In this document: piece by piece, positions 33,139-52,099 of the stretch
Layout: each line of letters begins with the position of its first letter
How positions within the stretch are numbered: the stretch's first letter is position 1
Assembly: GCF_014204915.1 (NCBI RefSeq)
Contig: NZ_JACHMH010000001.1
Span: 1,054,001-1,118,000 of the forward strand
Direction: 5' to 3'
Source: Crossiella cryophila
Lineage (GTDB): Bacteria > Actinomycetota > Actinomycetes > Mycobacteriales > Pseudonocardiaceae
DNA: 64,000 nucleotides
The notes under the pieces: generated by a model
What the model was told of the DNA's origin: nothing
Database searches by the model: none
Seen by the model: the letters and a program-made list of their open reading frames with translations, nothing else
Program-made: the position numbers and the translations under genes

Positions 33139-36100
33139 TCAGATACCCGGGGTGGGCAGCTTCGGCATGGCCGGAACGCCGACCTTGGGCAGAGCCGGCA
33201 GGGTGGGCAGCAGGCCGCCCACGCCCGGCAGGTCAGCCTGGCGACCGGCGCCGGGGACCGCGGGCACACCCGGGAGGGTGGGCAGCGCGACCTTCGGCAG
33301 GGTCGGCATGGCGGGGATCAGACCGCCGTCGAGCAGGCTCGGCAGGCCGAACTTGCCACCGGAGACACCCAGCGGTCCGTTGACCGGAGCCGCGGTGCGG
33401 CCCTTGGCGCCGGAGAACCCGAAGGGCACGTCCGTCACCGAGGGCAGGTTCTTGCCCAGCTCCATGTCGGTCACCGGGATCTGCAGCTCGGCGGGGGCGC
33501 CACCGACCTCCATGTTGGTGGCCTCAGAAGCGTTGGTCATCGCGTCGCCGACGACCTCCACCGGCACGTCGTAGACCTGCGCGACGGCGCCGATCGGGGC
33601 GAAGGCGTTGAAGCCGGAGAGGCTGCCGCCCTCGGCACCCGAGGTGCTGCCCGGACCGCCGACGGTGCTGTCGACCTGGGAGTCGGCCAGCGAGTCGGTC
33701 ACGGCCAGCGCGGACACGGCGTCGCCGAACGGCTGAGCGGCCGCACCGACGGGCACGTTCACGATGGAACCGGCGATCGAGCCGCCGTCACCGGCGGTGG
33801 CCAGCTCGCCACCGGACTCGGTCTCCACCACGGAGGCGGACACGGCGTCGGCGGTGCCCGCACCCGAGGCGGCGAGGCCGTTGGCCTCGACGACCGGGCT
33901 CAGCGGCGCGGTGACGATGTCGCCACCGAGGAAGCTGCTGACACCGTCGGTCACGGTGGTGCCGCCGGCCTCGGAGGCGATGCTGTTGTCGGCCACACCG
34001 GAGGTGGTGCCGATCAGGTTCACCGAGTCGCCCGCGACCTGGATGGCGCTGGCCACCGGCACGTTCGCCACGGTCCCGGTCCCGGTGCCCTTGACCCCGC
34101 TGGTCTCGGTGTCGCCACCGGCCTCGGAGGTCACCGCGTTGGACGCGGAGCCGTCGGCCAGCAGCATCAGGCCAGCGGCGTCACCGGCCACGTTGGTGGG
34201 CACGGCCACCGGCGCGGTCGCGACCAGGCCGGCCAGGCCGCCCAGGTCACCGGCGGTGGTGTTGTCGCCACCGGCCACCACGTCGGTGGTGTTCTCCGCC
34301 GCACCGCTGGAGTTGACGATCCAGCCACCGGCGATGCCCTCGGCCTGCACCGGTCCGGCCACCGCGGGGGTGACCAGGTTGCCGGTCAGCACGCCGTGCG
34401 AGCCCTCGGAGGTCGAGTCGCCACCGGCCACGGAGGACACGGTGTTCTCCGACTCGGCCTCGGACACGACGATCCAGCCACCGGAGAGGCCCTGGCCCTG
34501 GACGGGCATTGCCACCGGGGTCTGCACGACGTTGCCGGAGAGGCCACCGTCGGTGCCGTTGCCGGTCACGTCCCCACCGGAGACGACGTCGGCGGTGTAC
34601 TCGCTCCACGACTCACCGCGGACGATCCAGCCGAGCGTGCTGCCGGTCACGGCCACCGGGCCGGAGACCGGGGTGGACACGGCGTTGCCGCTGCCCAGCG
34701 CGTCGTCGTCGGTCGCGGTGTTGTCGCCGCCGGCCTCGTTGTCCGTGTTGCTGGTGGACTGCGCGGTGCCGTTGACGATCCAGCCGCCGGTCACGCCCTC
34801 GACGTTGACCGGAGCGGCCACCGGCACCTGGACGCCGTCACCGGCGACCAGCGAGTCGTTGCCGCGGGTGCCGATCATGCCACCGGCGTCGGTGGTCGTG
34901 TCGGTGTTGGTGGCGGCGTCGGCGTTGGCGATCCAGCCACCGGCCACACCCGAGACCTCGGCGGGCAGGGTCAGCGGCGCGGAGCCGATGACGCCGGCGA
35001 CCATGCCGTTGTCGCCGTTGGTGAAGGCGTCCCCACCGGCAACGGACTCGGTCACCTGGGTGTGCTGCGAGTCCGTGTTGGACACCCAGCCACCGGAGTT
35101 GCCCAGCACCTGGACGGGCTCGGCGATCGCGGCGTCGACGATGTTGCCACCGCCGGTGCTCTCGTCACCGTTGGTCATCAGCAGGCCGCCGGTCTGCGCG
35201 GTGCTGGTGGACTCGGAGACCGAGTCGGCCAGGCCGCCCCAGGCGAGGGCGTTGCCGGCGACCGTGACCGGGCCGGAGACGTTCGGGGTGATCAGGTTGC
35301 CACCGATGCCGCTGTCGTAGCCGGAGGTGACGCTGTCCCCACCCGCGATGGCGTCCGCGGTGGTGGAGCCGGTCGCGTTGGAGTTGCCGACCGGGAAGAC
35401 CACGAGGGCGTTGTTGTTGCCCTCGACCGGCAGCGCGATCTGGCCGTGGCCGATGTTGCCGCCGAGGGTCGAGCCCTCGCCGTCGGAGTCCACGTTGCCA
35501 CCAGCGTCGGCGGCGATGGAGGACTCGTTGCTGGTGTCGGCGACACCCGCGGCACCGGAGATGGCGTTGCCGGTCAGCTGGACCGGGGTGGCCAGCGGCA
35601 CGACGACGGCGTTACCGGAGAGCGAGGAGTCCTTGCCCGAGGTCTCGACGTCGCCGCCGGACTGGGCCTCCACCAGGGAAACGCTGGTCGCCTCGGCGTG
35701 GCCCGCCGCGGCAACCGCGTTGCCCGAGATCAGGACCGGGGACACCGCGTCGACGTCGACCACGTTGCCCGCGATGCTGCCGCTGTCGCCGTTGGTGACG
35801 ACGACCTCGGGCTTGCTGTAGCTGTACTCGCTGACGTTCTCGACGTCCGCGTCGCCGGTGGCGGCGATCGCGTTGCCCTCGATGATGACCGGGACAACCG
35901 CGTCAGCGTGGATCTGGTTCGCCCGCAGCAGGTCGGCTTCGCCCAGCTTGGGAGCGTCGTCGGCCTTGCTGGTGGCCTTCCCCTTGCCGCCGAGCTGGGG
36001 CAGCTTCACCGACTTGCCGGCCTCGGTGGCAGCGCCACCGAAGGGCAGGTTCGGGATGATCTTGCGGGTGTCGACGGTCAGCGCTTCGTTGTGCAGCGGG

Positions 36101-36291
36101 GGGAGGTCGACCTCACCCAGCGCGGTGCCAACGGCGTTGTTGTCGATGTGCAGCGGGACCGTGACCGACGCGCCCAGGGGAGTGGACTGCGTGTCGGGGT
36201 TCTCGCCGGCGCTGGCGACGCCAGTACCGAGGGCGAGCAGCCCACCGGTGACGAGTACGGTCTTCAGACCGCGCTTCGCCCAGATGTGCAT
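33139..36291 (-). CDS. Giant cysteine-free chaplin-like repeat surface protein
   Basis: 1050-aa secreted protein. Signal peptide about residues 1-28. A Lys/Asp-containing spacer precedes about 16 tandem units of roughly 51 residues (about residues 118-935). Each unit has the core G-N-x4-P-V-x2-P-V-x-V-x-G-N/x followed by G-G-W-I or A-x-x-G, a Ser/Thr/Asp-rich stretch, and an A-G-G-D turn. The core resembles the chaplin domain of amyloid-forming aerial-hypha proteins but has no cysteines anywhere. The C-terminus (about 980-1050) is a Leu/Pro-rich tail (P-T-L-P-x-L-P-K-V). There is no LPXTG or membrane anchor. AAAGGAG lies 7 nt before ATG 36291. Confidence 0.85.
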   Translation of the reverse strand: MHIWAKRGLKTVLVTGGLLALGTGVASAGENPDTQSTPLGASVTVPLHIDNNAVGTALGEVDLPPLHNEALTVDTRKIIPNLPFGGAATEAGKSVKLPQLGGKGKATSKADDAPKLGEADLLRANQIHADAVVPVIIEGNAIAATGDADVENVSEYSYSKPEVVVTNGDSGSIAGNVVDVDAVSPVLISGNAVAAAGHAEATSVSLVEAQSGGDVETSGKDSSLSGNAVVVPLATPVQLTGNAISGAAGVADTSNESSIAADAGGNVDSDGEGSTLGGNIGHGQIALPVEGNNNALVVFPVGNSNATGSTTADAIAGGDSVTSGYDSGIGGNLITPNVSGPVTVAGNALAWGGLADSVSESTSTAQTGGLLMTNGDESTGGGNIVDAAIAEPVQVLGNSGGWVSNTDSQHTQVTESVAGGDAFTNGDNGMVAGVIGSAPLTLPAEVSGVAGGWIANADAATNTDTTTDAGGMIGTRGNDSLVAGDGVQVPVAAPVNVEGVTGGWIVNGTAQSTSNTDNEAGGDNTATDDDALGSGNAVSTPVSGPVAVTGSTLGWIVRGESWSEYTADVVSGGDVTGNGTDGGLSGNVVQTPVAMPVQGQGLSGGWIVVSEAESENTVSSVAGGDSTSEGSHGVLTGNLVTPAVAGPVQAEGIAGGWIVNSSGAAENTTDVVAGGDNTTAGDLGGLAGLVATAPVAVPTNVAGDAAGLMLLADGSASNAVTSEAGGDTETSGVKGTGTGTVANVPVASAIQVAGDSVNLIGTTSGVADNSIASEAGGTTVTDGVSSFLGGDIVTAPLSPVVEANGLAASGAGTADAVSASVVETESGGELATAGDGGSIAGSIVNVPVGAAAQPFGDAVSALAVTDSLADSQVDSTVGGPGSTSGAEGGSLSGFNAFAPIGAVAQVYDVPVEVVGDAMTNASEATNMEVGGAPAELQIPVTDMELGKNLPSVTDVPFGFSGAKGRTAAPVNGPLGVSGGKFGLPSLLDGGLIPAMPTLPKVALPTLPGVPAVPGAGRQADLPGVGGLLPTLPALPKVGVPAMPKLPTPGI
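33490..35940 (-). repeat. About 16 tandem coding repeats of ~153 bp
   Basis: Degenerate units of about 51 codons inside the chaplin-like gene. The middle units (about residues 370-680) are most alike and carry the G-G-W-I variant. The first four lack Trp, and the last five drift in the core. Divergence at DNA level argues for old duplications rather than recent slippage. Confidence 0.85.
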
Positions 36292-36481
36292 TGTGGATCT
36301 CCTTTTGTTGTTCCCCCTGGCGGGAGGGGGAATGGGGTCGGATGGCCGGACGTGAATTCACGTCGGGGCAATCGGCCACCCGGGTCTATGGGGATATTTC
36401 AGGCACGCCGAATAAAATCGACGTGCACCGGAATGGCGCGATTTCTGCGACCTGCGAGAACGGCGAGCGGAGCGCCGAGAG

Positions 36482-36538: not shown

Positions 36539-37351
36539 TCAGTCGGGGGTGGTGCCGGGCGCCTTGGCCTGCCCGGCGAGCACGCAGTCGGCCGCGGCGG
36601 AGTCCGCCAGCAGGCCACGCGTGGTGTCCATCAGGGAGTGCATCGGCAGATAGCCGCCGAGCGCGACCAGGGCCGCGTCGGTTCCGTCGTGTCCGCACGA
36701 GCAGGAACCGGGGTTGCTGGTCGGCACCGGCATCGGCAACGGGACCAGCGGGAGGAGTGGAAGGCCAGGCTGGACGGGCTGCGGCTGTTGCCGGGGCGCG
36801 TCCTCGACCTGGCCTGGCTGCTGCACCGGCGCCGTGCTCGGCGCAGGCGGAACGGGATGGCGATCAGGCTGACTCGCCACTGGGGCCGTCGCCGCCTGCT
36901 CCACACGGGATTCGGCGTCGGCGACGGGGGCGCCCTCGTAGTAGGCGGCGTCCCTGGCGTACATCCGGGCGGAGGGCCCGGAGCCGGTGTTGGCGACCGC
37001 CTCGGTCACCTCGCTGAGCACCGGGGCCTGCTCGAACAGCTTGGCCACGTTGTGCACGGCGTCTTCGATGGGGCCATCGACCTTGACCTGCCGCGCGGGC
37101 TGGCTGATCACCGAGGTTGCCTCGCTGATCGCCCTGCGAACGCCCTCGTCAGCGGCAGTGCGGACCTCGCCGACCAGGCCGGCGGCCTGGTCAGTGGAGG
37201 CGGCGAGAGCCTGCGTGACGCTCTGCACCGGGTCGGCCATCGGCTCGACCGGGACCAGGTCCGCGGCGTTGGCCGAACCAGCCGCGATCAGCCAGCCGAT
37301 CAGCGTGCCGCCGGAGACCACGAGCGCCCGGGACAGCAGCCGACGCACTCG
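36539..37351 (-). CDS. Small secreted protein of unknown function
   Basis: 270-aa protein from GTG 37351 (GGGGGG at 7 nt), which gives a standard signal peptide ending A-N-A (residue 28). A GTG at 37387 with GGAGG at 7 nt would add 12 residues. A helical region (about residues 30-130) is followed by a Pro/Gln-rich linker. The C-terminal part has three cysteines, C-S-C-G and a later D-C-V-L-A, enough for one disulfide. I recognise no family. It sits between the chaplin-like gene and the beta-helix membrane protein, all on the minus strand. Confidence 0.7.
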   Translation of the reverse strand, partial: RVRRLLSRALVVSGGTLIGWLIAAGSANAADLVPVEPMADPVQSVTQALAASTDQAAGLVGEVRTAADEGVRRAISEATSVISQPARQVKVDGPIEDAVHNVAKLFEQAPVLSEVTEAVANTGSGPSARMYARDAAYYEGAPVADAESRVEQAATAPVASQPDRHPVPPAPSTAPVQQPGQVEDAPRQQPQPVQPGLPLLPLVPLPMPVPTSNPGSCSCGHDGTDAALVALGGYLPMHSLMDTTRGLLADSAAADCVLAGQAKAPGTTPD

Positions 37352-37506
37352 GCCACCCCCCGCGACATTCTGGTCCGTACCCGGCACGTGCACGCCTCCG
37401 TCTGGAGAATCTTGAGCTGGACAACGCAGAACATGTCAGATCAAGAACCCCGTCCGCAAACTCTGCGGCCGAATACCCACTATCGAGTTAATTGGCTAAA
37501 GCTGAT

Positions 37507-39756
37507 TTAGTTTCGCTTCAACACACGGGTCGCGCCGGCCGCCGCGGTGGAGGCGAGAATCCAGCCGACCGCGGTGAGCACCACGGCTATCCACTGCGAG
37601 GCGCCGGTGATCCGCCACATGTTGTCCTGGCCGAGGGTCACGATCGGCAGCAACATGTCCGCGGCCAGCAGCCAGGGGTTCCACACCGGGTTCTGGTCGG
37701 AGTCCAGGCGCTCGATCGGATATTGGTGCGGACCGGGGGTGGCGCTGTACATCTCGTTGAACCAGATGCCACCAGCCGCCCAGAACACCAGCAGCCACAG
37801 CAGCGCCAGCCAGGGCCGGTAGCCGTAGCCGACGGTGACCTCCTGCAGCAGGCCCCACAGCCGCCCGGCCACGCCCAGCTCGGTGTAGCGGTGCCGCTGC
37901 TTCTCCAGCAGCACGCGTTCCGCGCGTTCCTCGTGCCCGCCGTCCCGGTAGACGTTGGCCAGCTGCTCGTAGGGTCCCGGCGCGTAGTCCGGGGCCACCG
38001 TGCGCAGCCAGGTCAGCCGGGTGCGCACGTCGACGTCCGGGTCCGCGGCGATGCCCTGATAGGAGAAGTCCTCCAGGTCGAGCCCGCCGGTGGCCTGCCA
38101 CAGCAGCTCCCCGTCGGTGACCGTGACGACCTTGGCCCGGCTCAGGATCACCCGGCCCAGCGGCCTGCGGCCGAAGCGCACCACGAGCTGCTGCGCGGTC
38201 AGGCCGTAGGCGTTGAGCGCGATGCCGTCATCGCCGCCGCCCAGTTCGGAGCCGGTGAAGGTGACCATCTTGCCCACCTCGACCAGCCGGATCCGCACCC
38301 CGCCCTCGGCCACCATGCCCCAGCTGCAGAGCAGGTCCTTGCCGATGGTGGCGACCCTGGCGTCCAGCGAGGGCTTGATGGTGCCGTCGTTGCGGCGGCG
38401 CGGGTCGACCAGCTTGGCGCCGGAGCAGTCCAGGGTGGAGCCGATGGCGGCGTTCTGCAGCCGGACCGAGCCGCGGGCGGCCAGATCACGCAGGAACAGG
38501 GTGCCGCCGACGCGCAGCCGGTCGGCGAAGAGCACGTCGATGCCGGGTCCGTGCAGGGTCACCCCGGACAGGCTGGCGCTGCCGTGCACGTGCGCGTCGA
38601 CCAGCCGGACCTGCCCGAAGGCGCGCATGCCGCCCTGCCGCTCGAACCGGCCGTCGGGCAGCCGGACCGCCTTGCCCCTGGCCTCCAGGTCGCCGCGCAC
38701 CTCGATGCCGTCGGCGAACAGGGCCACCGGGAACCGCTGCACCGGCTGCTTCTCGTGCTCCTCCTCCAGTTCGGCCAGCGCGGCCTCCGGACCGAGGGTG
38801 GCGCCGACCATGCGCAGGTAGCCGCCGATGCTGGCGTTGGGCAGCCGCACCGAACCGGCCGAGGTGAAGCCGTCGTCGAGCTGCACGTTGCCGTCCACCG
38901 TGATCCGGTCGGCGACCAGCGAGGCGGCGTCGTGCGCCTGGCCGTGCGGCACGATCGGCATCGGCGAGTCGGCGGAGTCCTCGGCCTGCAGCCGGGCGCC
39001 GGAGAACACCGCGTCGCCGCCGATCCGGGCGCCGGAGAGCACCACCCGGCCGCTGGCGGTGAACCGGCCGCCGTCGCCGTCGCAGAACAGATTGCCGGAG
39101 ACGACCAGTCCCGAGCCCTCCAGCGCGTCCGCGCCGGGGTTGCTCAGGTGCGCGCCGCCCAGGTGCACGTTGCCGCTGACCGTGGCCCCGCGCAGGCGCA
39201 CCTCGCCGGTGGCCCGCAGCGAGGTGGCCTGCAGTGAACCGCTGATCCGCAGCCGGGCGCCGAGCAGCGCGTGGTCCTGCGGGCTGCGCAGCACCGCGCC
39301 AGCCAGCCGCAGGGTGCCGCGCACGGTGGCGTCGGTGAGGTCGACGCAGCCGGTGGCGGTGAACCCGGCCTCCAGCACCAGGTCGCTGTCGATCTGCAGG
39401 TTGCGGCCCTTGAGGCCGGGCAGCCGGCAGCCGGGCAGGCGCAGCCCGATCAGCCGGGCCATCCGCAGATCGGGCGCGGTGTCAAAGGTGCACCTGGTCA
39501 GTTCGATCAGGGTGCGCAGGTCCAGCGCCTCCAGGTCGAGGCGGCCGGTGATGCTCGCCCCGGTCAGCCGCAGCGCGGGCACCCCGGCGGGCCGCAGCCG
39601 GTAGAGGCCGGTGAGCAGCCCGGCCAGCAGGCTGGCCCGCACCCGGGTGTCCACACCGTCTGCCAGCGGCAGGACCAGCTGACGACCGACCGCGAAGGCG
39701 CGGCAGACCGCGCGCTCGACCTCGGTGAAATCCGAGGGCTTGGGATACGGGTCCAT
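37507..39756 (-). CDS. Beta-helix (bactofilin/pentapeptide-like) protein with C-terminal membrane helices
   Basis: 749-aa protein. Residues of about 60-560 are a long run of short strands with repeated G-x-L-x-L-x-G-A-x-I/L-x-G periodicity, a right-handed beta-helix of the pentapeptide/bactofilin kind. A charged helical part follows (L-E-K-Q-R-H-R-Y). The C-terminal membrane module has Y-G-Y-R-P-W and two or three helices with L-L-P-I-V-T-L-G-Q between them, a layout recalling two-helix channel pores. Homologues are sometimes labelled membrane-associated oxidoreductase, but I see no cofactor motif. ATG 39756 is the sensible start; the SD is weak. Confidence 0.72.
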   Translation of the reverse strand: MDPYPKPSDFTEVERAVCRAFAVGRQLVLPLADGVDTRVRASLLAGLLTGLYRLRPAGVPALRLTGASITGRLDLEALDLRTLIELTRCTFDTAPDLRMARLIGLRLPGCRLPGLKGRNLQIDSDLVLEAGFTATGCVDLTDATVRGTLRLAGAVLRSPQDHALLGARLRISGSLQATSLRATGEVRLRGATVSGNVHLGGAHLSNPGADALEGSGLVVSGNLFCDGDGGRFTASGRVVLSGARIGGDAVFSGARLQAEDSADSPMPIVPHGQAHDAASLVADRITVDGNVQLDDGFTSAGSVRLPNASIGGYLRMVGATLGPEAALAELEEEHEKQPVQRFPVALFADGIEVRGDLEARGKAVRLPDGRFERQGGMRAFGQVRLVDAHVHGSASLSGVTLHGPGIDVLFADRLRVGGTLFLRDLAARGSVRLQNAAIGSTLDCSGAKLVDPRRRNDGTIKPSLDARVATIGKDLLCSWGMVAEGGVRIRLVEVGKMVTFTGSELGGGDDGIALNAYGLTAQQLVVRFGRRPLGRVILSRAKVVTVTDGELLWQATGGLDLEDFSYQGIAADPDVDVRTRLTWLRTVAPDYAPGPYEQLANVYRDGGHEERAERVLLEKQRHRYTELGVAGRLWGLLQEVTVGYGYRPWLALLWLLVFWAAGGIWFNEMYSATPGPHQYPIERLDSDQNPVWNPWLLAADMLLPIVTLGQDNMWRITGASQWIAVVLTAVGWILASTAAAGATRVLKRN

Positions 39757-39856
39757 TGCTGTCGATCTCACCCGCACGGGGCCGGATGGGCAATAGACCG
39801 GAGGACGGCCCGCGCGTTTGCCCCATGACGACTCGGTCACGGCTACCGTGATCGGG

Positions 39857-41029
39857 GTGAGCAGCCGCAGGCAGGAGCAGCCGAGCAAGGTCCGGCGCGA
39901 GGTTGTCGAGCAGGTCCCCTACGGACTCCGGGTGGGAGCGGCGCTGTCCTGGCGCTTCCTCACCCTCTGCGGCGCGTTGGCCGTACTGGTGTTCCTGGTC
40001 GGCTACTTCGCCAGCCTGGTGATCCCGGTGGGCATCGCGCTGCTGCTGGCCGCGCTGATGGCGCCCGCGGTGAAGCACCTGGTGGCCTGGAAGGTGCCGG
40101 GCTGGGCGGCCACCACGATCGTCCTGGTCGGCGGGCTGCTGCTGGTGGTCGGCGTGCTGGTCTCGGTGGTCGCGGCCTTCGTCAACGGCGTGCCAGAGCT
40201 GCAGGCCAAGGTCGTGGTCGGTATCGACCAGATCAAGGACTGGCTGGTGCACGGGCCGCTGCAGCTGACCCCGCAGGACCTGGACCAGTACGTTGGCCGG
40301 TTCGTGGAGATGCTCAAGAGCAACATCTCCACCATCGCCACCAACGCGGTGAACACCACGGTGACCACCGCGGTCGGCGTCGGCGAACTGCTCACCGGCT
40401 TCCTGCTGCTGTTGTTCACCCTGATCTTCTTCCTGCACGACGGCAGCAACATCTGGAGCTTCCTCACCAGGGGCGTGCCGATCCGGGCCCGCAAGCGGGT
40501 GGACGTGGCGGGCCGCCGCGGCTTCGCCTCGCTGGTCAGCTACGTGCGGGCGACCGTGGTGGTGGCCATCGTGGACGCGGTGGGCATCGGCATCGGCCTG
40601 GCCATCGTGGGCGTGCCACTGGCGGTGCCACTGGCCGCGCTGGTCTTCCTGGCCGCGTTCGTGCCGATCATCGGTTCGCTGATCGCCGGTTCGGTCGCGG
40701 TGCTGGTGGCCCTGGTGGCCAACGGCCCGATCGAGGCGCTGATCGTGCTGATCATCGTGATCGCGGTGATGCAGCTGGAAAGCCACGTCCTGCAGCCCCT
40801 GCTGCTGGGCAAGGCGGTCTCCCTGCACCCGCTCGCGGTGATCCTGGTGATCATGGGTGGCCTGTCCCTCGCCGGGATCCCCGGCGCGCTGCTGGGTGTG
40901 CCGGTGCTGGCGGTGCTGAACTCGGCGATCCGCTCACTGGTCAACGAGGACGATCCGGATCCGGAGCTGGTGGACCCGACCAACCGGGCCGACGCGGTGG
41001 TCGGCGGCAAGGGCGAGGAGCCCGCCTAG
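39857..41029 (+). CDS. AI-2E family transporter
   Basis: 390-aa polytopic membrane protein of the AI-2E (PerM/TqsA) family. Two N-terminal helices, a long periplasmic-type helical segment (about residues 100-190), then five or six helices including the conserved P-I-I-G-S-L-I-A-G and late G-I-P-G-A-L-L-G-V-P motifs. Members export autoinducer-like molecules or ions; the substrate is uncertain. GTG 39857 is chosen because TACCGT (39844-39849) ends 7 nt upstream, suggesting a leaderless message. It is divergent from the beta-helix protein. Its stop overlaps the convergent diguanylate cyclase stop by 3 bp. Confidence 0.87.
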   Translation: MSSRRQEQPSKVRREVVEQVPYGLRVGAALSWRFLTLCGALAVLVFLVGYFASLVIPVGIALLLAALMAPAVKHLVAWKVPGWAATTIVLVGGLLLVVGVLVSVVAAFVNGVPELQAKVVVGIDQIKDWLVHGPLQLTPQDLDQYVGRFVEMLKSNISTIATNAVNTTVTTAVGVGELLTGFLLLLFTLIFFLHDGSNIWSFLTRGVPIRARKRVDVAGRRGFASLVSYVRATVVVAIVDAVGIGIGLAIVGVPLAVPLAALVFLAAFVPIIGSLIAGSVAVLVALVANGPIEALIVLIIVIAVMQLESHVLQPLLLGKAVSLHPLAVILVIMGGLSLAGIPGALLGVPVLAVLNSAIRSLVNEDDPDPELVDPTNRADAVVGGKGEEPA

Positions 41030-46804: not shown

Positions 46805-49800
46805 GTGAGAAGACCGATAGGGCTGGTTGCAGCAGCCACCCTTGCGGCGACCAGCGCGGCTGTCCTCGTCCACCCAGCACCCGCAGCCGCGGGCGAGGGT
46901 GACGGAACACTGCGTGTGAGCGTTGTCCGTGATGTCAACGGCAATGGCACTTATGAGCCCGCGCTGGAAGTGGGCGTCAGTGGAATTCCGTTGACCGTGA
47001 CCGATCCGAGTGGCGGCTCGGCATCGGCGACCACGGCCGCTGACGGCACCGTGACGGTCCCACTCGGAAACGTCTCGGGCGGCAAGTACCGCGTCGAGGC
47101 GAGCATTCCCGAGTCGATGTCCTACCTGAAGCCCGCGCCGGCAGGCGGCAGTCTCTCCTCACTCACCGAATTCGTCGACGTTTCCGGCCGCAAGAACGTC
47201 ACCGTGACGATGGGCGTGTGGAACCCGGCGGACTACTGCCAGGCCAACCCGGCGCTGGCCACGGCCTGCCAGCGGGATGTGTACCTGGTCAAGGAGAACG
47301 CGGGCGCCCGTTCGCTGGTGAGCTTCCCGTTCACCGCCCGCGGCACCTCGCCCGCGCCGACCCAGCTGGCCGGTCAGGGCCAGACCGGCACGATCTTCGG
47401 CATGGCCTACCGCAAGGCGGACAAGCGGCTGTTCTCCGGCGCCTTCGCCAAACGGCTCGCGCTCTACGGCCCCGGCGGCGCCGGCGCGATCTACGTGACC
47501 GCGGCTGGCGGGGCGACCACCCGGTTCGCCACCGTGCCGAACGCGGGCTCGACCGCACACGCGGTCGGCACCAACTTCGACGGCGGGTTCTACAGCGTCC
47601 CCGGCAAGGAGAGCCTCGGCGACCTCGAGATCTCCGACGACGGCAAGGACCTCTACGTCGTCAACATGGCGGACAAGAAGCTCTACGTCTACGACGCCAC
47701 CGCGGCCACCGCGACCGCGCCGAAGGGTTCCTACGCCATCCCGGCGACGGCCTGTGCCGCCGCGGCCGACTGGCGGCCGGGCGCGCTGGGCGTCAAGGAC
47801 GGCGTGGTCTACGTCGGCGGCGTCTGCTCTGGCGCGTCCAGCCAGAAGCTGTCCGATGTGAAGGGCGTGGTGTTTCCGTTCACCGGCAGCGCCTTCGGGG
47901 CCGCGGTGGTCAACAAGACGCTGGACTTCCAGCGTGGCGAGGCGTTCCGGGACACCGGCACGACCTGGCGCCCATGGCTGGACACCTGGGACCTGAACAA
48001 GATCCCGCACAGCCGGGCCGGGTTCGACCCTGGCTCCGAGAACACGGCCTACCCGCAGCCGCTGATGACCGACATCGGCGTGGAGAACGACGGCGACCTG
48101 GTGCTCGGCTTCCGGGACCGCTTCGGCGACCAGGTCGGCCAGCAGACCCCGTCCCCGGACGGCAGCGCCCGCGGCACCACCTACAACGCGGTGGTCGGCG
48201 GTGACTACAACCGGGTCTGCAAGCAGTCCGGTGGTGGCTTCGTCTGGGAGGGCGGCGCGGGCTGCCCGAACAACAACACCGGCTCGGACAACGGCGGCGA
48301 GCCGGACTCGGTGGTCGAGTACTACCCTGGCGAGTTCTTCAACCGGCACCAGGAGACCGGGATGGGCGCGGTGGCGATCGTGCCCGGCGCCTCCCGGATG
48401 CCCGCGACCGTGATGGACCCGGTGGACTACCGCGCCAGCGGCGTCGGCTGGTTCGACCGGGTCAACGGCACCATGCAGAACGACGAGCGCTCCAACGCCT
48501 ACGAGGTCCTGGACGAGACCAGCGAGGGCTGGGGCAAGGCCAACGGCCTCGGCGACCTGGAGGCGCTCTGCGACCAGGCCCCGGTGCAGATCGGCAACCG
48601 GGTCTGGTTCGACGCCGACTCCGACGGCGTGCAGGACGGCGGCGAGCCCGCGCTGCCCGGGGTCAAGGTGACCCTGCTGGCCTGCGGCAGCACCACGGTG
48701 CTGGGCACCAAGACCACCGACGCCAAGGGCCAGTACTACTTCGGCGCGGCCGAGGGGGTGAAGCCGGAGAGCTGCTACACGGTGAAGTTCGACTACTCCG
48801 CCGCGGACACCTCAGGTCTGCCGGGGGCGCCACCACCGGCCACCCTGAACTGGACCGGCAAGGAGGCCGGGGCCAGCCGGACCGTGGACTCCAACGTCGA
48901 CCCGGCCACCGGCGCCGCCACGGTCAACGTCGGCCCGGCAGGCGCGGACGATCACAGCGTCGACGCCGGTGTGACGGTCGCCCCGCCGAACAAGCTGGGC
49001 GACCTGGTCTGGGTGGACACCAACCGCAACGGCGTGCAGGACGCCGGGGAACCGCCGGTGCCCGGGGTCAAGGTGACCGCGAAGAAGCCGGACGGCAGCG
49101 CGGCGGGCACCGCGACCACCGACGCCACCGGCAAGTACCTGATCACCCCGTTGCCGGACGGCGCCTACACGGTCTGCTTCGACCTCTCCGGCCTCGCGCC
49201 CGAGTACCAGGGCTACCTGCCCACCAGGCCGAACGCCGGCGGTGACGACGCCAAGGACTCCGACCCGGATCCGGCCACCGGCTGCACCGCCAGCACCACG
49301 CTCGGCCCGGACAAGCGGGAAGACCTGACCCTGGACGCGGGTATCCGGCCGGGCAACCGGCTCGGCGACTACGTCTGGATCGACGCGAACAAGGACGGCG
49401 TCCAGGACGCGCCGGAGAGCCCGGTGCCGGGCGTGCCGGTGATCCTCAAGGACGGTTCGGGCGCGGTGGTCGGCAACACCACGACCAACGCGAGCGGGCA
49501 GTACCTGTTCGACAAGCTGAAGGACGGCACCTATCAGGTCTGCTTCGACCTGACCAAGCTGCCGGCCAGCGTCGGTGACTACGTGCCGACCAAGGCCAAC
49601 GCGGGAACCGATGACGCGAAGGACTCCGACGCCGATCCGGCCACCGGCTGCACCGCGACGACCACGCTGAACATCGACAAGCCGGAGGACCTGACGCTGG
49701 ACGCGGGTCTGATGCCGCCGGTGAACCAGCTGGGCGACTACGTGTGGATCGACACCAACAAGAACGGCCTCCAGGACGCGCCGGAGACGGGCGTCGAGGG

Positions 49801-52099
49801 GGTCAAGGTCACGCTGCTCAAGGGCGATGGCGCCGAGGTCGGCAGCACCAGCACGGACGCGAACGGCAAGTACCTGTTCACCGATCTGCCGGACGGCTCC
49901 TACCAGGTGTGCTTCAGCCTGAAGAGCCTGCCGCAGGCGGTGGCGGACTACCTGCCGACCACGCCCAACGCCGGTGCGGACACCGCCGACTCCGACGCCG
50001 ACCCGGCCACCGGCTGCACCGAGGTGGTCGAACTGGGTGCGGGCAAGCGGCAGAACCTCACCCTGGACGCCGGTCTGGTCAGCCCGCCGAACAAGCTGGG
50101 TGACTACGTCTGGGTGGATGCCAACAAGAACGGTCTCCAGGACGCGGGCGAGAAGCCGGTGGCCGGGGTGACCGTGGTGGTCAAGAACGGCGGCGGCACG
50201 GAGGTGGGTCGCACCACCACCGATCCGCAGGGCAAGTACCTCTTCGACAAGCTGCCCGACGGCAAGTTCTCGGTCTGCTTCGACCTCAAGAGCCTGCCTG
50301 CCGACCTCGCCGACTACCAGCTCACCAAGCGCTACGCCGGTGACGACGGCACGGACTCCGACGCCGATCCGGCCACCGGCTGCACCGAGCCGGTGGACCT
50401 CGGACCGGGCAAGCGGGAGAACCTGACCCTGGACGCCGGGCTCACCAGCCCGGTGAACCGGCTCGGCGACTACGTCTGGATCGACGCCAACAAGAACGGC
50501 CTCCAGGACGCGGGCGAGATCCCCGTGGCCGGGGTGACCGCGGTGCTGCGTCCGGTCAACGGGCCGGAGCAGACCACCAAGACCGACGCGCAGGGCAAGT
50601 ACCTGTTCACCGATCTGCCCGATGGTGGTTACCAGGTCTGCTTCGACGTCAAGAAGCTCCCGGCCAACGTCGGCGACTACACGCTGACCACGGCGAACAC
50701 CGGTGACGATGCCAAGGACTCCGACGCGGACCCGGTCACCGGGTGCACGCCGGTGGTCCAGCTGGGCACCGGCAAGCGGGAGAACCTGACGCTGGACGCG
50801 GGCCTGGTGGCCCCGGTGAACCGCCTCGGCGACTACGTCTGGGTGGACACCAACCGCAACGGCGTCCAGGACCAGGGCGAACCCCCGGTGCCGGGCATCA
50901 CCGTGAAGGTCAGCAACAAGGCTGGCGAAACGCTCACCACGAAGACCAACGAGCAGGGCAAGTACCTCTTCGAGGGGCTGCCCAACGGCCTCTACCAGGT
51001 GTGCTTCGACCTGAAGACGCTGCCTGCGGCCAACGCCGGCTACCTGCCAACCAGGCAGGACGCGGGCTCGGATGACGCGAAGGACTCCGACGCCAACGCC
51101 GACGGCTGCACCAACCCGGTGGAGCTGACCGTGGGCAAGCGCGAGGTGCTCACCGTCGACGCGGGTCTGCGCGAGCCGAACCGGCTCGGCGACTACGTGT
51201 GGGTGGATGCCAACAAGAACGGTCTCCAGGACGCGGGCGAGAAGCCGGTGGCCGGGGTGACCGCGGTGCTCAAGGACGCCACGGGCAAGCAGCTGGCGAC
51301 CATGAAGACCGACGACAAGGGCAAGTACCTCTTCGGCAAGCTGCCGGATGGCACCTACCAGGTGTGCTTCGACGGCAAGTCGCTTCCCGCGCCCTACGGT
51401 GACTTCCAGGTCACCAAGCCGAACGCGGGCGCGGCGGATGTCGACTCCGATGTCGACCCGGCGACGTGGTGCACCAAGACCACGACGCTCGGCGTGGACA
51501 AGCCGGAGGACCTGACCCTGGACGCGGGCATCGCGGAGCCGGTCAACCGGCTCGGCGACTACGTGTGGGTGGACAAGAACGGCAACGGCCTGCAGGACCC
51601 GGATGAGCCAGGGGTGCCCGGCGTGCCGGTGAAGGTGGTCGACAAGGACGGCAAGACCGTCAAGGAGACCACCACCGGCAAGGACGGCAAGTACCTGGTG
51701 GAGGGCCTGCCGGAGGGCAGCTACACGGTCTGCTTCGGGCTGAAGAGCCTGCCGTCCGCGCTGGCCGGCTACACGCCGACCAAGGCGGCGGCCGGGGATC
51801 CGGCGAAGGACTCCGACGCCGATCCGGCCACCGGGTGCGCCAAGCCGGTCGCACTCGGACCGGGCAAGCGGGAGAACCTGACCATCGACGCGGGCCTGCT
51901 CGCGCCGAAGGTCGGACCCGGTCCCGGACCTGGGCCTGGCCCCGGTCCGCGGCCCGCTCCAGTGGTTGACCAGGGCAAGCTGGCCGACACCGGCGCCGAT
52001 GTCGGGTGGCTGCTCGCACTGGGCCTGCTGGCCCTTGGCGGCGGCGCCGGGCTGATGCTGCTGGCCAGTCGGCGACGCCGACGCTCCGACAGCGTCTGA
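46805..52099 (+). CDS. Sortase-anchored surface protein with nine SdrD B-like repeats
   Basis: 1764-aa wall protein. The signal peptide (residues 1-29) is followed by one Ig-like unit (about 35-130). A beta-propeller-like region then covers about 150-580 (repeated strands such as D-L-E-I-S-D-D-G-K-D-L-Y-V-V). Nine SdrD B-like domains (about 595-1700) follow, each starting L-G-D-Y-V-W-x-D-x-N-x-N-G-x-Q-D, a calcium-loop pattern, and carrying two cysteines (V-C-F and T-G-C). After a (G-P)n spacer comes the sorting signal L1726-A-D-T-G1730, a helix and five arginines. LAXTG is the class E sortase motif. GTG 46805 has GGGAG 6 nt upstream. Confidence 0.93.
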   Translation: MRRPIGLVAAATLAATSAAVLVHPAPAAAGEGDGTLRVSVVRDVNGNGTYEPALEVGVSGIPLTVTDPSGGSASATTAADGTVTVPLGNVSGGKYRVEASIPESMSYLKPAPAGGSLSSLTEFVDVSGRKNVTVTMGVWNPADYCQANPALATACQRDVYLVKENAGARSLVSFPFTARGTSPAPTQLAGQGQTGTIFGMAYRKADKRLFSGAFAKRLALYGPGGAGAIYVTAAGGATTRFATVPNAGSTAHAVGTNFDGGFYSVPGKESLGDLEISDDGKDLYVVNMADKKLYVYDATAATATAPKGSYAIPATACAAAADWRPGALGVKDGVVYVGGVCSGASSQKLSDVKGVVFPFTGSAFGAAVVNKTLDFQRGEAFRDTGTTWRPWLDTWDLNKIPHSRAGFDPGSENTAYPQPLMTDIGVENDGDLVLGFRDRFGDQVGQQTPSPDGSARGTTYNAVVGGDYNRVCKQSGGGFVWEGGAGCPNNNTGSDNGGEPDSVVEYYPGEFFNRHQETGMGAVAIVPGASRMPATVMDPVDYRASGVGWFDRVNGTMQNDERSNAYEVLDETSEGWGKANGLGDLEALCDQAPVQIGNRVWFDADSDGVQDGGEPALPGVKVTLLACGSTTVLGTKTTDAKGQYYFGAAEGVKPESCYTVKFDYSAADTSGLPGAPPPATLNWTGKEAGASRTVDSNVDPATGAATVNVGPAGADDHSVDAGVTVAPPNKLGDLVWVDTNRNGVQDAGEPPVPGVKVTAKKPDGSAAGTATTDATGKYLITPLPDGAYTVCFDLSGLAPEYQGYLPTRPNAGGDDAKDSDPDPATGCTASTTLGPDKREDLTLDAGIRPGNRLGDYVWIDANKDGVQDAPESPVPGVPVILKDGSGAVVGNTTTNASGQYLFDKLKDGTYQVCFDLTKLPASVGDYVPTKANAGTDDAKDSDADPATGCTATTTLNIDKPEDLTLDAGLMPPVNQLGDYVWIDTNKNGLQDAPETGVEGVKVTLLKGDGAEVGSTSTDANGKYLFTDLPDGSYQVCFSLKSLPQAVADYLPTTPNAGADTADSDADPATGCTEVVELGAGKRQNLTLDAGLVSPPNKLGDYVWVDANKNGLQDAGEKPVAGVTVVVKNGGGTEVGRTTTDPQGKYLFDKLPDGKFSVCFDLKSLPADLADYQLTKRYAGDDGTDSDADPATGCTEPVDLGPGKRENLTLDAGLTSPVNRLGDYVWIDANKNGLQDAGEIPVAGVTAVLRPVNGPEQTTKTDAQGKYLFTDLPDGGYQVCFDVKKLPANVGDYTLTTANTGDDAKDSDADPVTGCTPVVQLGTGKRENLTLDAGLVAPVNRLGDYVWVDTNRNGVQDQGEPPVPGITVKVSNKAGETLTTKTNEQGKYLFEGLPNGLYQVCFDLKTLPAANAGYLPTRQDAGSDDAKDSDANADGCTNPVELTVGKREVLTVDAGLREPNRLGDYVWVDANKNGLQDAGEKPVAGVTAVLKDATGKQLATMKTDDKGKYLFGKLPDGTYQVCFDGKSLPAPYGDFQVTKPNAGAADVDSDVDPATWCTKTTTLGVDKPEDLTLDAGIAEPVNRLGDYVWVDKNGNGLQDPDEPGVPGVPVKVVDKDGKTVKETTTGKDGKYLVEGLPEGSYTVCFGLKSLPSALAGYTPTKAAAGDPAKDSDADPATGCAKPVALGPGKRENLTIDAGLLAPKVGPGPGPGPGPGPRPAPVVDQGKLADTGADVGWLLALGLLALGGGAGLMLLASRRRRRSDSV
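48588..51900 (+). repeat. Nine coding repeats of about 354 bp (SdrD B-like)
   Basis: Units begin near 48588, 48985, 49357, 49723, 50089, 50455, 50815, 51175 and 51541. Units 5 and 8 share near-identical first stretches (V-D-A-N-K-N-G-L-Q-D-A-G-E-K-P-V-A-G-V-T), pointing to recent recombination. Copy number could vary between strains. Confidence 0.9.

Follow-up and report, generated by a model that had tools for sequence, protein, structure and literature searches.

The chaplins ChpA-H of Streptomyces coelicolor are described, in excerpts of one account (PMC5618241), as proteins with one or two chaplin domains, the long ones carrying a sortase signal. Excerpts of another (PMC3079736) describe their fibrils as cross-beta, the cysteines as dispensable for fibril formation in vitro and ChpE as devoid of cysteine. 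Chaplin-like genes have been named in several genera (PMC4255298). Here, we analyze a gene of Crossiella cryophila (Pseudonocardiaceae) that encodes an apparently secreted array of sixteen chaplin-like units; it lies in a stretch of 64,000 nucleotides (contig NZ_JACHMH010000001.1, positions 1,054,001 to 1,118,000 of the forward strand), hereafter the window. The source is a soil-dwelling, thread-forming bacterium, and to our knowledge none of the genera named there belongs to the Pseudonocardiaceae. No description of multi-unit chaplin arrays was found in the open-licence literature, preprints being outside the scope. With moderate confidence, we read the array as a covalently concatenated chaplin-type surface fibre that has no sortase anchor and in which each unit would form one rung.

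An apparently secreted array of sixteen units

The open reading frame (ORF) of the array (33139-36291, reverse strand; Table 1) starts with ATG and has exactly the limits given in a first-pass annotation made from the sequence. Its product of 1050 amino acids (aa) contains, as annotated, no cysteine; it has nine tryptophans and is rich in Gly, Ala, Val, Ser and Thr (G 16%, A 14%, V 12%). Tandem repetition is demonstrated by self-comparison with BLOSUM62 (aa 131-960, offsets 20-119), in which the score exceeds 0.35 only at offsets 51 (mean 1.2) and 102 (0.87), while 200 shuffles at the single offset 50 give a mean of -0.52 (standard deviation 0.08, maximum -0.32). A unit hidden Markov model (HMM), seeded with twelve units of the array protein and rebuilt twice from its family, recognizes sixteen units in the one chain, fifteen near-complete (aa 164-927) and one partial (aa 124-152). 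Both approaches bear out the annotated array of about sixteen units of about 51 residues, and the HMM also bears out its single-chain multivalency. The core G-N-V-V-Q-T-P-V-A-M-P-V-x-x-x-G, claimed for every unit, occurs in this exact form in one (aa 572-622), the rest being variants. The GGWI said to follow it is present as GGW[IV] in 5/16 units and as LGWI in one more (by eye), not in every unit. A tandem duplication at the DNA level was rejected, Tandem Repeats Finder having detected no tandem repeat in the DNA of the array; the unit copies therefore appear to be far diverged. Throughout, the family stands for 80 proteins, i.e., the window protein and 79 named loci kept among at least 164 matches listed. 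The unit HMM finds 14-19 units per protein, with 14 in 62 of the 80.

The N-terminus is, by eye, a typical signal peptide that is conserved in the family, with W4, R7, T15, G16 and G17 invariant among 31 aligned sequences, and the protein is apparently secreted, as had been proposed. In the C-terminal tail no sorting signal was seen by eye. An L[PA]xTG string occurs within the last 60 residues of 3/80 family proteins, and a simple pattern for a hydrophobic stretch followed by a basic pair at the C-terminus has no match in any of the 80. No sortase anchor is convincing here, which supports the annotated lack of a covalent one.

Relation to chaplins and to other arrays

Homology of the units to chaplins is well supported by profile matches in both directions. 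Pfam family PF03777 (ChpA-C), the sole one at E <= 1 for the array protein, scores 44.9 bits against the whole protein (cut-off 21) through seven stretches, and 21.1 bits at its best single place in the ORF; NCBIfam returned nothing for the protein. In the other direction, the unit HMM matches all 16 canonical chaplin ORFs with 27-49 bits, compared to at most 1.6 bits for reversed chaplins and at most 6.8 bits for 960 shuffled ones. These are the ORFs of 30 fetched loci that were retained by a filter on position and plus strand and on the presence of a P[VIL]..P[VIL] core and of one or more cysteines. When a small HMM is made from 11 chaplin domains in the same ORFs, the 80 family proteins score a median of 39.4 bits (maximum 91.8, minimum -11), with control maxima of 12.6 bits (80 reversed) and 8.2 bits (400 shuffled). 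Direct HMM-HMM alignment of array unit and chaplin, the check named in the first-pass annotation, spans 36 columns with a probability of 96.9% (E 1.8e-10), and the chaplin similarity that was annotated from the motif is upheld.

By profile, the array protein is a member of the chaplin-domain superfamily (PF03777, DUF320). It shares with ChpA-H the core LSGNVVQxPVxxPVxxxG and the apparent secretion. It is not a classical chaplin: whereas short chaplins have one domain and long ones two plus a sortase signal, it combines sixteen units with a tail in which no sorting signal is seen, and it lacks the two cysteines that are conserved in all S. coelicolor chaplins except ChpE. It further differs by having an additional long strand of Gly, Ala and Thr, a tail rich in Pro and Leu, and a partner encoded upstream.

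Vestiges and INTERMEDIATES: cysteine is present in 62/80 family proteins and absent from the window protein. A cysteine pair 9-19 residues apart is found in 61/80, compared to 3.8 on average and at most 8 under random placement (n=200); 24 cysteines are unpaired. In canonical chaplins the first cysteine is found 4 residues past the core proline, with a distance of 18 between the two cysteines (18 cases). Among the 77 family pairs, the first cysteine follows a proline by 4 residues in 27 and by 5 in 32, while 18 have no proline within six residues, and the spacing between the cysteines is mostly 14-16. Position and spacing place the family pairs at or beside the chaplin site, with a shorter loop.

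Shorter arrays that contain cysteine were found outside the family Pseudonocardiaceae, within its order (L194, L195, L196, L203, L199, L204, L198, L197). These eight proteins of 322-680 aa, with five to ten unit-HMM matches each, resemble the window protein in their repeated units and in a related signal-peptide start (W-x-[KR]-[RK] in 7/8, by eye). PF03777 matches all eight, with scores up to 223 bits; seven are above the cut-off and L197 just below it. In the same set of ten sequences, the window-family sequence L192 passes and the window-family array L205 has no match. The eight differ from the window protein in being shorter and in keeping chaplin-like cysteines, and L194-L197 end, by eye, in an LPxTG/LAxTG-like tail. 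No description of such arrays was found in literature searches. Based on the cysteine traces and these relatives, we read the window protein as related to chaplin arrays but devoid of both cysteine and anchor.

Predicted fold

AlphaFold2 predicts an all-beta repeat for the array (predicted local distance difference test, pLDDT, 85.6; predicted template modelling score, pTM, 0.78) and for five units alone (pLDDT 94.0, pTM 0.85), and in both models the strand pattern recurs once per unit. We read this predicted fold as a beta-solenoid with one unit per period. The long strand comprises 15-26 residues in the models, and across 1028 units an alternation and corner pattern is seen, with outer long-strand positions rich in Thr, Ser, Asp and Glu. 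In the first-pass annotation, a predicted beta-solenoid would have counted against chaplins. The models do show an all-beta fold of solenoid-like shape, but with chaplin homology this clear it appears to offer a model of the chaplin unit and not to refute the relation.

Fold searches of the PDB (best E 3.9 with the full array, 0.044 with five units) and of BFVD (best E 0.0068) yielded nothing at E <= 0.001, which does not prove a new fold. By sequence, no solved relatives were found (best E 0.56 for the window protein, 0.074 for a five-unit profile). Among the weak, non-significant structural neighbours are CsgA and FapC, both functional amyloids, as well as tailspikes, the S-layer protein RsaA, antifreeze proteins and a putative adhesin. 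Curli CsgA and FapC differ from the array in coming from other bacteria and in repeat length, and no sequence relation to them was found. A phmmer search with one canonical chaplin as query found no solved structure at E <= 1, for which reason the architecture of chaplin rodlets looks open.

Distribution of the array and its partner

The 79 relatives bear names that we take to be of Pseudonocardiaceae (Crossiella, Allokutzneria, Amycolatopsis, Prauserella, Saccharothrix, Lentzea, Kutzneria and others; the family of Crossiella was checked), those from Crossiella being 85 and 90% identical to the window protein. The array protein is present in 5/5 genomes of the genus and, at E <= 1e-5, matched in 140/200 genomes of the family, 106 of them strongly (E <= 1e-30) and 34 more weakly, several of the latter in the N-terminus only. 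The search in other Pseudonocardiaceae that the first-pass annotation had suggested shows the array to be widespread.

Within the class, PF03777 occurs in 106/393 genomes, and its matches in the family are mostly ORFs of about 1000 aa. Clear single-domain chaplins number two among the matches listed for the 200 family genomes (L184, L185), and further short-frame matches, also among those listed, are weaker (about 21-26 bits). The two genomes belong to one genus and have a short chaplin of canonical type (80 and 76 bits) alongside the array, perhaps acquired by horizontal transfer. In the genome that contains the window, the array ORF is the only place to exceed the PF03777 cut-off. Two sub-cut-off chaplin matches elsewhere in the genome (L061, L062) were dropped, since the unit HMM does not match them at a sequence E <= 0.01.

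In 74/79 named loci, the array gene is preceded on its own strand, at a distance of 84-248 bases, by an ORF whose product ends in TPD. Its commonest tail is PGxQPG[VTI]TPD (L112 ends in APD), possibly a recognition or sorting tail, and its N-terminus is, by eye, signal-peptide-like with a positively charged start. Co-occurrence of the two genes is pronounced: across the 200 family genomes, the partner profile (E <= 1e-5) is found in 103/106 genomes with a strong array match, in 17/34 with a weaker match and in 2/60 with none. Neither Pfam nor NCBIfam has a meaningful match to the partner (best E 0.86 and 0.082, respectively). As a separate observation, a second, diverged array copy is present in three genomes of one genus (G037, G070, G097; L063 and L064, same genomes as L046 and L047), with 40-41% identity to the window protein; among the matches listed, a second partner-like match stands beside it in G037 and G097.

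Proposed organization and competing explanations

In the organization that we propose, sixteen divergent PF03777 units are held in one secreted chain, exported through the conserved signal peptide, and each 51-aa unit would correspond to a single beta-solenoid rung. Gly-Asn corners may stack into ladders, the Val/Pro-rich chaplin core would provide one sheet, and the long strand, with Gly and Ala inward and Thr, Ser and Asp outward, the opposite one. The product would be a pre-assembled, two-faced cross-beta rod of about 16 rungs, with a hydrophilic long-strand face and a face bearing Val, Pro, Phe and Trp. A single polypeptide would herewith achieve what chaplin amyloid gains by polymerizing many; with the polymer encoded as one chain, we infer that assembly equals folding. 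With no sorting signal seen, the rod is presumably held on the hyphal wall non-covalently, perhaps through its Pro/Leu-rich tail or, probably, together with the TPD-tailed partner, and it may be part of a surface sheath. Chaplin-like amyloid assembly and surface activity are conceivable, as is a role in aerial hyphae or in the rodlet or sheath that the first-pass annotation had suggested, and rods might stack further into fibres.

This chaplin-type fibre has to be weighed against three other explanations. The foremost alternative is a stable beta-solenoid without amyloid character that reuses the chaplin unit as an adhesin or S-layer-like scaffold with no role in rodlets, i.e., a monomeric rod with a flat Thr/Ser/Asp-rich face binding carbohydrate, mineral or other cells. 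The high-confidence monomeric prediction, the polar outer positions of the long strand, the tailspikes, RsaA, antifreeze proteins and putative adhesin among the weak neighbours and the apparent lack of a sortase anchor all fit such a protein. However, those structural matches are just as non-significant as the others, the chaplin core is retained with its Val, Pro, Phe and Trp positions, and the putative binding face has no known site; we consider the adhesin rather unlikely, though a serious competitor. A place in the cell envelope, where partner and array would serve wall maintenance or an envelope response rather than an outer coat, is suggested by further neighbours in the window, namely a GGDEF protein, a histidine kinase and a LuxR-type regulator besides an AI-2E-family transporter. 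It also agrees with the situation in genus g38, in which a match to the array N-terminus only has, about 1 kb upstream, a partner-like match (G041, G133). One such g38 protein is L202 (1219-2664, forward strand); it and L201 (642-2111, reverse strand) are examples of proteins in some genera that are about 480-490 aa long, have the conserved W-A-[KR]-R signal region and give no unit-HMM match. Yet functional coupling to the neighbours is only putative and both array and partner are apparently secreted; we consider an envelope system improbable.

One observation weighs against chaplin descent as such: PF03777 reaches E 0.001 in 23/31 aligned family members and misses 8/31. Together with the biased composition, it would suit an unrelated secreted repeat protein whose Gly/Asn/Val/Pro-rich sequence converged on a chaplin-like appearance. 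Against convergence stand the scores of reversed and shuffled chaplins, far below those of real ones, the position of the relatives' cysteine pairs and the scores of the Cys-containing arrays. Convergence of biased sequence was rejected on the reversed and shuffled controls and is largely refuted; we hold it to be very improbable.

If the array is the chaplin-type fibre that we favour, a more specific reading can be put forward, albeit tentatively and with more doubt than conviction. The protein may be a naturally occurring, covalently linked chaplin fibre, its predicted fold displaying the build of chaplin amyloid, with one chaplin per rung and two Gly-Asn corners as Asn ladders, and Pseudonocardiaceae may coat their hyphae with this pre-linked rod and its TPD partner. 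A genetically fixed, monomeric chaplin stack might be crystallized or imaged where fibrils are hard to study, and its fold would give a rung model testable on chaplin fibrils. The array is also a candidate answer to the question of how hyphae are coated in actinomycetes with rare canonical chaplins, and its locus points to a second, co-conserved component in the TPD-tailed partner.

Neighbouring features and leader hairpin

Synteny of the locus extends beyond the partner to a pentapeptide-repeat protein and an AI-2E-family transporter, the gene of the latter lying nearby and divergent from the array locus (Table 1). Another large protein of surface type, with 1764 aa and about ten SdrD_B-like domains, is encoded some 10 kb away from the array at 46805-52099 (forward strand).

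Table 1. Features of the array locus (window positions).
Feature	Position	Strand	Evidence
Chaplin-array protein, 1050 aa, no Cys	33139..36291	-	ORF list, Pfam, composition, unit HMM
Signal peptide (~aa 1-28), W-A-K-R-G start common to family	36208..36291	-	By eye and conserved columns
N-terminal pre-array region, aa 29-123; first part conserved (NPDxPAxPLD...NNAVGTPLG)	35923..36207	-	Family alignment
Sixteen ~51-aa chaplin-like units, aa 124-927	33511..35922	-	Unit HMM and AlphaFold2 models
C-terminal tail, aa 928-1050; Pro/Leu-rich near end; no sorting signal seen	33142..33510	-	By eye and family check
Conserved two-helix hairpin between partner and array gene	36340..36381	-	Pair counts, folding z -3.93, covariance model R1
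Partner gene; product of 284 aa, apparently secreted, with PGTTPD at its end	36539..37393	-	ORF list, locus survey, genome profile search
Pentapeptide-repeat protein, syntenic neighbour	37507..39888	-	Pfam; in 22/79 named loci (within fetched flank) and window
AI-2E-family transporter, syntenic neighbour	39818..41029	+	In 67/79 named loci and window

The leader between partner and array gene contains a conserved hairpin, aligned in 26 of 80 leaders that were hand-picked, mainly outside Amycolatopsis and Prauserella. In these, 86.9% of cells pair, compared to at most 48.5% in slid versions, and 24 cells are changed on both sides versus 7.8 in shuffles. The hairpin exceeds its slid versions in paired cells, changed cells and covariation score, a control biased towards the hairpin since it was read from the window sequence before testing. 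The number of pairs changed on both sides (8/14) shows no excess over slid versions (9 at -1, 8 at -3). Single-sequence folding gives a z-score of -3.93, and RNAalifold alone recovers four pairs in the leader. On the genome, covariance model R1 finds the hairpin site and one chance-level place (E 0.945), with 150 candidates scored of 16206. Among 25 loci outside its build set, 23 match at E <= 1, 22 of them in the corresponding leader, many of these matches being weak and possibly carried by the ribosome-binding stretch. Rfam gave one chance-level match over 8.5 kb (E 0.8) and left the hairpin unmatched. Two words recur in the leaders: AAGGAGAA in 59/75 stretches and CCCGCAAG, part of a possible small GNRA-loop hairpin, in 37/75.
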